From Agrobacterium tumefaciens (GTDB lineage: Bacteria; Pseudomonadota; Alphaproteobacteria; Rhizobiales; Rhizobiaceae), in contig JAGIAH010000014.1 of assembly GCA_017744915.1 (NCBI GenBank), positions 1 through 64,000 on the forward strand: DNA of 64,000 bases, written 5' to 3'. A program made the position numbers and the translations under genes. This document shows positions 20,286 through 23,020 of this stretch, piece after piece; within the stretch, counting starts at the first letter, position 1, and every line of letters starts with the position of its first letter. The notes beneath the pieces are model-generated. The model was not told where the DNA came from. It was given only the letters and a program-made list of their open reading frames with translations, and did no database searches.

Positions 20286-20493
20286 AGTGCGGACGTTGCG
20301 GTTTCGCCGGAAATCCTCGTTTGGCGGACATCACCAAAGCCTTTGCGAGTTTCGGTTCGGCTTCTCCGTCTGCAGTGTCGCGCGACAGGCCATTTCGTTA
20401 TTTCCCGCAACCAATAAGGTTTCGTTTACCTCATTTCTTTAAAATTTGTCCTGTATTGCCGCGATAGCGGCCGCTGAAGGTACAGGTTCTCGT

Positions 20494-21807
20494 ATGGCGT
20501 ATGTTTCCCTTCCGCGTCGTCTTGTGACGTTGCTGATGATTTCCACGGTCATGGTGTCGTGTTCGGCGGAGGGTCTCGTGCCTCCGGCGGAGGTGGATGG
20601 CACCACGCGCGTCAGCGCCATTCGCTCGTCGCGGCAGCAGGGTTACAGTGCACCGGCCGGGGCCGTCTATCAGGCCGAGCGGGCCGGACAGAGCGCCGAT
20701 TATCCTTCCGCCATATCGCAGCCGATGCCGGAACCCTACGCCTCTCAGGATCCGCTGCTGCGGTCGCCGCAGGGCGGGCAGGGTTATTCCACGCTCGACG
20801 CGCAGCACCAGGCGCGCATGGCGGCCAGCGGCCATGCCAATATGCCTTCCCAGACGATGCAAAGCCAAACCATGCAGAATGAGGCCATGCAAGGCCAGAC
20901 CATGCCCGCGCAGCAGATGGCCGGTAACCAGATCGCCGAAGGCGAGGGCGGCGTGAACATGGATTCCATGCTGGGTGTGGAACCGGTTCGCGGCCTTGCC
21001 GAAGAACAGGATGCGCAGATCGCCGAGGGCGCTTCGACGCAGCCGGTGGTGGATGGCATCGGTACGGACAATCCGGTGGCCATGTCTCCCGCGCGCCGGC
21101 AACCGGCCTCCAGCCAGTCACGCCTGATACCGCCGCCACCGCCCGGTTCCTCTTCCCGCCGCCAGCCCGTGGAGGAAGTGGCCATGCTCATGCCGAACGA
21201 TCCGATGGCGGGTGGCGGGATGCAGAGCAACCGGCAGATGCCGCCCGGCGTCATGCCGTCCTCCGAAGTTGCCTGCCGCAGCGAATTGCGCCGTCTCGGC
21301 GTCGCCTTCCGCGACGTCGCCCGTATTGCCGACGGCCCGACCTGCGGCATCGATTATCCGATCGAACTCAGCGGTCTTGCCAGCGGTGTCGCCATTCGCC
21401 CGGCGGTGAAGCTCAATTGCCAGGTCACGCTTGCCTTCGCCAAATGGGTGAAGTTCGAACTCGTGCCGTCCTCGCGCTTCCGCTATCTCTCGGGCGTCGG
21501 TCGCATCACGCCGATGGGCGGTTATTCCTGCCGCAAGATGAACTCCCGTTCCAGCAATCCCTGGTCCGAACATGCGCGCGGCAATGCCATCGATATCGGC
21601 ACCATTACGCTGAAGAACGGTAAGGAGATCGACGTCCGCAAGAAGAGCTTCTTCGCCTTCCGCGAAAAGGCGCTGCTGAAGGCGGTGAGGTCCGACAGCT
21701 GCAAATATTTTTCGACCGTTCTCGGGCCGGGCAGCGATCCCAATCACTGGAACCATTTCCACTTCGACCTGCGCACGCGCAAATCCGGTTACAGGCATTG
21801 CGATTAG
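20494..21807 (+). CDS. extensin-like domain lipoprotein
   Basis: The 437-residue protein begins MAYVSLPRRLVTLLMIST and has a lipobox-like VMVSC at about residue 25, so it is probably a lipoprotein. A low-complexity, Gln/Met/Pro-rich middle (short repeats of the type QTMQSQTMQNEAMQGQ) links to a C-terminal extensin-like domain (from CRSELRRLGVAF; NPWSEHARGNAIDIG; DPNHWNHFHFD). The His/Asp pattern resembles LAS/DD-peptidase metal sites, so a cell-wall role is plausible but unproven. Confidence 0.8.
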   Translation: MAYVSLPRRLVTLLMISTVMVSCSAEGLVPPAEVDGTTRVSAIRSSRQQGYSAPAGAVYQAERAGQSADYPSAISQPMPEPYASQDPLLRSPQGGQGYSTLDAQHQARMAASGHANMPSQTMQSQTMQNEAMQGQTMPAQQMAGNQIAEGEGGVNMDSMLGVEPVRGLAEEQDAQIAEGASTQPVVDGIGTDNPVAMSPARRQPASSQSRLIPPPPPGSSSRRQPVEEVAMLMPNDPMAGGGMQSNRQMPPGVMPSSEVACRSELRRLGVAFRDVARIADGPTCGIDYPIELSGLASGVAIRPAVKLNCQVTLAFAKWVKFELVPSSRFRYLSGVGRITPMGGYSCRKMNSRSSNPWSEHARGNAIDIGTITLKNGKEIDVRKKSFFAFREKALLKAVRSDSCKYFSTVLGPGSDPNHWNHFHFDLRTRKSGYRHCD

Positions 21808-21872
21808 GGTGTGCAAGGACAGTGTGTGAGTGGGCGACGAGAGTTGTGGGGTGTGGTCACTCCCTCAGTTTT

Positions 21873-21903
21873 CCGTCATTCCGGCTCGAGGCCAGTATGA
21901 CGG
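21873..21903. repeat. short palindromic remnant with CCGTCAT/ATGACGG ends
   Basis: A 31-base imperfect palindrome bounded by CCGTCAT and ATGACGG, with CCGGC/GGCC inner arms. The ends match those of the longer repeat families in this window, so it looks like a shortened derivative. Confidence 0.5.
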
Positions 21904-21965
21904 AGGTGAGGAATGGCGTCAGAATCGAGGACCCAACCTTGTCATTCACCTGTTCCCATGCCCAC

Positions 21966-22140
21966 AAAAAAAGACCGGCCCGAAGGCCGGTGAAGAAGAC
22001 AGCCATATCGGGGGGATATCGGCGTCTTTGCAAGGGCATGCAATGGGAAAACGATCCCACGGAGTGGTCTATCCGGCGCGGATATGCGGCAAAAGACATC
22101 GCGCCGTACTGACCTGCGGCCAACATGGCTTGCCGCGCCT
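21966..22140 (-). ncRNA. candidate trans-acting small RNA gene
   Basis: Read on the minus strand, about 175 bases fold into consecutive hairpins: GCGGC/GCCGC (22136-22116); CGGCGCG/CGCGCCG (22106-22074); a long bulged stem of about 13 bp (22028-21996) with an all-C loop (CCCCC); then a textbook terminator ACCGGCC-TTCG-GGCCGGT followed by seven T residues (21991-21966). A possible promoter is TTGTCA (22176-22171), 17 bases, TAGCGT (22153-22148), with a weak -10. No conserved protein frame covers it. The C-rich loop could pair with G-rich ribosome sites. Function is inferred only. Confidence 0.65.
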
Positions 22141-22198
22141 TTCTGATACGCTATGAGCGTCACATGTTTGTGACAACGGCCCCCTGGAGCCTGCTTTC

Positions 22199-23020
22199 AT
22201 GCCCCCTGTTTCGGAGATAATGGTCTTTGCCGCCGCGCTCGCGGCCGCGGGTGTGGTGGCCGGACTTCTGGCGGGATTGTTCGGCATTGGCGGCGGCGCG
22301 GTGCTGGTGCCGGTCTTCTACCATGTCTTCGGCCTTCTGGATGTGCCGGAGGCTGTGCGCATGCATCTTTCACTCGGCACGTCGCTCGCCATCATCGTGC
22401 CGACCTCCATCCGTTCGTTCCTGACGCATCGTCAGAAGGGTGCCGTCGATATCGATCTTCTGAAGGGCTGGATCATTGCCGTGCCGCTCGGCACCATCCT
22501 CGCATCGGTGGTGGCCGCTCATGCCTCCAGCATTGCCCTGCGGCTGATCTTCGCCTTCATCGCACTGGCGCTCGCCTTCCGGATGATCTTCAACCGGGCG
22601 AGCTGGCATCTTGGTTCCGACCTGCCGAAAAATCCGGGCCGTTTTCTGGTGGGAACCGGCATCGGGCTTTTTTCCGGCCTGATGGGCGTGGGCGGCGGGG
22701 TGATGAATAACACCTTCATGACGCTTTACGGACGCACCATCCATCAGGCGGTCGCCACCTCTTCCGGCGTCGGCGTGCTGATTTCGCTGCCGGGTCTCCT
22801 TGGCTATATCTGGGCCGGCTGGGGTGATGCGGGCCTGCCGCCGTTCTCGACCGGCTTCATCAACTGGATTGCCGTGGTGCTCCTGATCCCCATCACGCTT
22901 TTCGTCGCGCCTTATGGGGCGCGGCTCGCGCATGCGCTCAGCAGGAAGCAGCTTGAGCGGGCTTTCGGGCTGTTTCTCGTCTTCGTCGCAGCGCAGTTTT
23001 TCTATAGCGTCTACGGCTGA
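22199..23020 (+). CDS. TauE/SafE family sulfite/organosulfur exporter
   Basis: A 273-residue inner-membrane protein with about eight hydrophobic segments and the two duplicated family motifs: [19 protein letters not shown] near residue 20 and [18 protein letters not shown] near 155. TauE/SafE proteins export small sulfur compounds such as sulfite or sulfoacetate; the substrate here is unknown. Start 22199 follows GGAG. It is divergent from the candidate small RNA. Confidence 0.85.

Follow-up and report, generated by a model that had tools for sequence, protein, structure and literature searches.

Rhizobial small RNAs (sRNAs) of the anti-Shine-Dalgarno type are marked by CCUCC or UCCU. Another pairing device is described for the Agrobacterium sRNA PmaR (formerly C10, from A. 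tumefaciens C58): in the accessible part of the report, its authors state that the pairing region is not anti-Shine-Dalgarno, that a C-rich loop is required for regulation, that targets are mostly raised and that predicted sites lie in 5′ regions and in coding sequences (PMC6234868). ChvR of Caulobacter crescentus is an alphaproteobacterial sRNA activated by a two-component response regulator, ChvI (accessible text of PMC9731502). Predicted PhoB sites stand before the rhizobial sRNA candidates sm14, sm25, sm30 and smrC16 of S. meliloti; for the phosphate-induced sRNA candidates that were detected in this species, the accessible text of the same study reports no conserved PhoB site evident before them (PMC2573895). 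Rfam holds further intergenic alphaproteobacterial sRNAs with intrinsic terminators, among them ar9, ar15/AbcR, Atu_C7 and Atu_C9.

The locus analysed here lies in a 64,000-nucleotide stretch of A. tumefaciens DNA (the window) and is very probably the gene for a small non-coding RNA on the minus strand. It shares with PmaR the genus and an exposed, C-rich loop that is not anti-Shine-Dalgarno, but identity with PmaR was rejected: the published nucleotides (G18, G19, G47, G81 and CCCAG at 58–62, that is, C58–C60, A61 and G62) are not found at the locus, and the PmaR loop is larger (PMC6234868, accessible part). In 10 kb of the C58 locus (L025), the only matches to the PmaR pattern with at least four of the five G residues are at offsets 9883 (+) and 8660 (−), away from the sRNA. 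With ChvR the locus would share activation by a two-component response regulator, although the regulator motif differs from the box found here (PMC9731502, accessible text). The S. meliloti candidates are a precedent for predicted PhoB sites before rhizobial sRNA genes, but their flanking genes differ from those of this locus (PMC2573895, accessible text). The four Rfam sRNAs are found at their own C58 loci and not at this one.

The original prediction had the loop acting as a Shine-Dalgarno decoy, in the manner usual among rhizobial sRNAs. This part is unsupported: CCUCC and UCCU are both missing from the 171 nt, which have only a C-run and a single CUCC at 22064. The same prediction had found no named family, and this stands. 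Identity with the 4227 Rfam families was rejected, none of them matching the sRNA at the curated cut-off; within the window only an FMN riboswitch (RF00050; 25657–25806, minus strand; 113.6 bits) and a terC RNA element (RF03067; 58273–58331, minus strand; 47.2 bits) were found. Three further matches were weak and far below cut-off, none of them at the window-type locus L036. The sRNA is absent from the 24 Northern-validated ncRNAs in Table 4, within the accessible part of PMC3738593; two RNAs validated there, C1_2087200F and C1_1275443R, correspond to the Rfam families Atu_C9 and ar9, respectively (L026, C58 C1:2087200–2087379, and L027). No name for the sRNA was found in the article texts searched, and it may already be an unnamed C58 RNA-seq entry. 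Genome G006 agrees in its coordinates with A. fabrum C58, with AbcR1 (ar15) and Atu_C7 at the positions published for C58, and the C58 copy of the gene lies at approximately 1886294–1886464 of the circular chromosome, a span whose length is taken from the 171-nt estimate.

The probable RNA gene, its fold and its close homologues

The gene occupies 21966..22136 (minus strand) and is conserved in 20 genomes of the genus. Its 3′ end is set by the terminator and its 5′ end is placed 7 bases past the presumed −10 hexamer, giving a predicted transcript of 171 nt. It is read away from the divergent TauE/SafE permease gene (22199..23020, plus strand; PF01925), which lies outside the sRNA, and toward the end of the convergent extensin-like protein gene (20446..21807, plus strand, putative start codon; PF06904). 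The earlier proposal of an independent sRNA gene on the minus strand, about 175 nt long and transcribed away from TauE/SafE, is supported, with 171 nt as the length derived from the promoter and with no Rfam match. The interval originally given, 21966–22200, does contain the RNA gene, but also takes in its promoter region and, at 22199, the start codon of TauE. The locus appears to have the marks of an intergenic sRNA, namely an independent gene, an intrinsic terminator, non-coding sequence and a promoter, the last recognized by comparison only.

Against 200 dinucleotide-preserving shuffles, minus-strand positions 21966–22130 have a minimum free energy (MFE) of −65.2 kcal/mol (z −3.87); the shuffles average −50.1, and none of them is as low. 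The shorter stretch 21966–22090 (z −3.49) and the longer one 21966–22200 (z −3.15) are each equalled by 1 of 200 shuffles. The RNA ends in an intrinsic terminator at 21991–21966 (minus strand), ACCGGCC-UUCG-GGCCGGU-C-UUUUUUU, the perfect UUCG-loop terminator with seven U residues that had been noticed before. It fits the minus strand only, with U7 there and A7 on the plus strand, and has the most G–C pairs among four terminator-like sites in 3 kb, a number of sites not above the shuffled mean of 3.1 (s.d. 1.8). The structure is established, as is the strand on the basis of the terminator.

Towards its 5′ end the RNA forms a hairpin GCGGC...GCCGC (22116..22136, minus strand), followed on the same strand by AUCCG-CGC-CGGAU (22071..22083; 98.9% of cells paired, with a longer pairing competing in the MFE fold of the window RNA itself) and UGGGA...UCCCA (22044..22059; 100% of cells paired, no variation). 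The C-loop hairpin AAGACGCCgAUAUCCCCCCGAUAUGGCuGUCUU (21996..22028, minus strand) comes next, its C-run at 22010–22015 being unpaired with a probability of 0.80–0.84 in the 20 close homologues. The stem of about 13 bp with a CCCCC loop described earlier is indeed there in the fold: it has 13 pairs, interrupted by two bulges of one base each, and a loop of five C. The earlier observation of a highly structured RNA with consecutive hairpins is confirmed, the minus strand folding better than its shuffles. Not every hairpin is conserved: among 18 distinct rows of homologues, only 3 have one A–U pair in the upper part of the C-loop stem, just above a one-base bulge, and 3 lack an intact small UGCA hairpin.

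A DNA search across 151 genomes found matches in 24: in 20, all in the genus, at near-full length, and in 4 over 24–33 bases at the terminator end only. One of these short matches, L022 in genome G022, belongs to the terminator of one of the divergent orthologues described below. A covariance model, built on a shorter 125-nt version of the RNA, finds a single copy in each of those same 20 of 39 genus genomes. No homologue was found outside the genus: under stricter filters the model matches 2 of 297 family genomes, both in the genus. Across the 20 genomes, mean identity per 20-base block is 0.87–0.99 from the TauE start through the terminator and falls beyond it to 0.745 and then to 0.56 in the next two blocks, a sharp boundary that is established. 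The TauE coding part has an identity of 0.89–0.97, and the RNA region is no more conserved than this.

Pairing is kept among the close homologues but is unproven by covariation. The five helices hold in 98.9, 100, 95.8, 92.1 (the C-loop helix) and 100% of cells over 18 distinct rows, and 0 of 34 pairs show a two-sided change because the stems of close homologues hardly vary. Compensatory change, suggested with the original prediction as a test of the stems, did not materialize in these genomes; structural support comes instead from the divergent same-slot elements. Changes do avoid stems: with columns assigned by the window RNA's MFE structure, variation is seen in 21 of 106 that are paired and in 24 of 65 that are unpaired (Fisher P = 0.012). 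The corresponding figures for five hand-chosen stems, 3 of 60 and 42 of 111, give P = 6 × 10−7, a biased value because these stems were chosen after the alignment had been seen.

One stretch of 28 bases, AUGCCCUUGCAAAGACGCCGAUAUCCCC (22012..22039, minus strand), is a single string in 20 of 20 close homologues, and we propose it as a pairing region along with the loop. Parts of its 3′ partner strand change, and length varies only in the loop-side base after AUGCCCUUGCAAAGACGCCGAUAUCCCC; fixation of one strand while its partner varies is as expected if AUGCCCUUGCAAAGACGCCGAUAUCCCC also pairs with something else. The 28-mer occurs in 11 named records, filed as Agrobacterium tumefaciens (3), pusense, salinitolerans, genomosp. 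13, leguminum and arsenijevicii, with the rest under Rhizobium (Rhizobium rhizogenes (2) and Rhizobium nepotum).

The upstream repeat and its candidate regulator

A Pho-box-like direct repeat, TTGTCAC-AAAC-ATGTGAC (22159..22176, minus strand), precedes the gene, and 10 bases past it stands the presumed −10 hexamer TATCAG (22143..22148, minus strand). This promoter was absent from the original account, which had the RNA but not the box. The arrangement, an 11-base direct repeat TGTCAY-N5-TGTGAY, then 10 bases, then a hexamer beginning with TA, recurs in 27 of 27 homologous elements, the divergent ones included, so that a repeat of this length appears to take the place of a −35 element at a fixed distance from the −10 in all of them, as in a Pho box. 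A simple sigma-70 scan detected no promoter for the sRNA. An internal promoter at 22124, which would give a 125-nt RNA, was entertained and demoted once the divergent orthologues had been seen. We infer instead that the RNA starts near 22136, is 171 nt long and begins with the GCGGC/GCCGC hairpin.

In the accessible text of the respective sources, the PhoB box is defined by two 11-base direct repeat units (PMC4415409), PhoB boxes that overlap the −35 lie 22–25 nt before the start (PMC3616915) and the S. meliloti consensus is CTGTCAT-N4-CTGTCAT (PMC2573895). Against this consensus the window box scores 9 of 14, the four divergent orthologues scored reach 11–12 of 14 and a remnant in genome G018 scores 5; the 64-kb window has 188 sites with a score of 9 and 34 with a higher one, and no site at 12. 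A search of 201 genomes with the stricter pattern TGTCAYNAANNTGTGAYG gives matches in 18, compared with 0 for the reversed control, and 17 of the 18 matches are at the sRNA locus. A single base keeps ten of the 20 close homologues outside the pattern, in nine cases the last base of the pattern. The sole match elsewhere, in another genus, ends 55 bases before a gene for a phosphate/phosphite/phosphonate-binding protein (TIGR01098).

The window's own genome contains 12 sites of the looser pattern TGTCAYNNNNNTGTSAY (control, 0). Eight neighbours were scanned, with three further sites left out: four encode phosphate-ester-type enzymes, namely a phytase-like domain (28.0 bits at a cut-off of 27.6), two metallophosphoesterases and a NUDIX protein, and four do not. 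The promoter of the PstS-type gene in this genome, a gene with no match by TIGR00975 and found by PF12849, begins with TTGTCACAAA, as does the sRNA box. On these comparisons, control of the predicted sRNA by PhoB is fairly likely. As a side observation, the Pho-box-like sites before the NUDIX gene (L141, C23) and the metallophosphoesterase/5′-nucleotidase gene (L144, C26) mark these genes as candidate members of the Pho regulon.

The strongest competing explanation, although clearly the less probable, accepts the sRNA and its exposed C-run but holds that the repeat is no PhoB site and serves another direct-repeat regulator of the OmpR family, or an ordinary promoter. The window box with its 9 of 14 speaks for this, as do the half of the scanned box neighbours that are not phosphate genes and the phnD-type gene of the same genome, which has no such box (best score 8 of 14); ChvR, activated by ChvI, provides a precedent (PMC9731502, accessible text). 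However, the divergent orthologues reach scores of 11–12 whereas the 64-kb window has no site of 12, and the off-locus match stands before a phosphonate-type transporter gene. ChvI itself was rejected as the regulator, as its motifs (TTGC-N3-GCAA, and N-GCC-N8-GCC in S. meliloti) are unlike the repeat (PMC9731502, accessible text).

Divergent elements in the same slot

The extensin-like gene is present in 39 of 39 genus genomes, and we inspected the slot downstream of it in all 19 without a match to the covariance model. Seven of these slots hold an element of like arrangement, with the upstream repeat, a body of variable length, a C-run-loop hairpin and a terminator, and 12 hold none. In the seven, the C-run sits in a loop beside or within the terminator hairpin, on stems that differ from the window type: GGGACAGC/GCUGUCCC in G028 and G037, GCAGCGAC/GUCACUGC with one mismatch in G014, and GGGCAGAG/CUCUGCCC in G022, G029, G001 and G010, the C-loop hairpin itself being the terminator in three of these last four. 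The C-run is predicted to be unpaired in 27 of 27 elements, with a mean probability of 0.80–1.0 compared with 0.36–0.48 over the whole RNA. Retention of the box and of an exposed C-run in the divergent orthologues is established.

A tree of the extensin-like protein places the seven divergent genomes on both sides of the genus. With three states mapped on it, 3 changes are required (minimum 2; shuffled mean 16.3; 0 of 200 shuffles as low); 2 of its 33 inner branches are well supported. In G018, a distance of about 13 kb separates TauE from the extensin-like gene. Presence of the gene is probably ancestral in the genus, and the mapping suggests, as the simplest account, that it was lost once in a clade of 11 genomes and once in G018.

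Alternatively, the seven divergent elements might have no relation to the window-type sRNA, their C-loops being coincidental and the window holding a younger sRNA restricted to the 20 close genomes. The hairpin sequences cannot be aligned, and most branches of the tree are weak (2 of 33 starred). C-loop hairpins also arise by chance: a scan that disallows bulges, and misses the window's own hairpin, detects them in 1 to 33 out of 300 shuffles for the seven and in 53 out of 300 for the window RNA. The 12 slots free of the element are no fair control here because they are largely coding. We nevertheless regard a lack of kinship as improbable: the same slot and the same upstream box, at equal spacing to the −10, are found in 7 of 7, and the tree sets the divergent elements on both sides of the genus. 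The weight of the link rests on slot, box and tree together, not on the C-loop alone.

That the conserved region is mainly a plus-strand promoter or leader of TauE/SafE, the minus-strand fold being incidental, is very improbable. The region does lie upstream of TauE, is conserved like the TauE coding part and contains a plus-strand promoter-like pair, CTTGCC-N16-CTATGA. However, the terminator works for the minus strand only and conservation stops exactly there, 225 bases from TauE. Moreover, 15 of the 39 genus genomes lack a TauE/SafE match at E = 1e-60, and 4 of these 15 retain an sRNA-type element with the box and C-loop, which argues that the box serves the sRNA. A role of the box as a palindromic TauE operator was likewise demoted, given these four genomes and the direct repeat kept in the divergent types. 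Coding for a small protein, in place of a non-coding RNA or besides one, is hardly credible: an ATG at 22126 opens an 89-codon minus-strand frame in the window, but this overruns the terminator, ranges from 5 to 159 codons across the 20 homologues (one of which has no ATG) and is shifted between them by one-base indels. Minus-strand frames exist mechanically, and the region, as originally described, has no conserved protein.

Proposed action and meaning

Returning to the sRNA gene with its PhoB-type box, we lean towards a trans-acting sRNA of about 171 nt that would be activated by PhoB, with the box replacing the −35 element and the C-run pairing with targets. Under phosphate shortage, phosphorylated PhoB would recruit polymerase at the box standing in for the −35. 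The RNA would terminate at the UUCG hairpin and U7, with a U tail that Hfq could bind. Using both the C-run, which the penultimate hairpin exposes in its loop, and the invariant stretch that precedes this run, the RNA may then pair with G-rich sites in mRNAs and so change their translation or stability. Taken by itself, the role of the C-run as a putative pairing site has a reasonable likelihood.

More tentatively, and with slightly less than an even chance of being right, the elements may represent an undescribed sRNA family ancestral to Agrobacterium and forming a non-coding arm of the Pho regulon, in which nearly all of the molecule, including its stems, has been replaced while the box and the loop C-run were kept, the inherited feature being a 'C-finger' and not a fixed sequence. 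Phosphate starvation in Agrobacterium would then have an RNA branch that is directly testable in C58, and the genus would offer a natural series showing which part of an sRNA evolution preserves, the box and C-loop staying and the rest being exchanged. A second C-loop sRNA besides PmaR would also make pairing through C-rich loops look like a general device of the genus.

Separately, the sequence between the terminator and the extensin-like gene (21870–21910), as well as the flanks of L004–L006, contains a repeat-like stretch resembling CCGTCATTCCGGC...GCCGGAATGACGG; other genomes, too, have stretches of this kind next to the sRNA.
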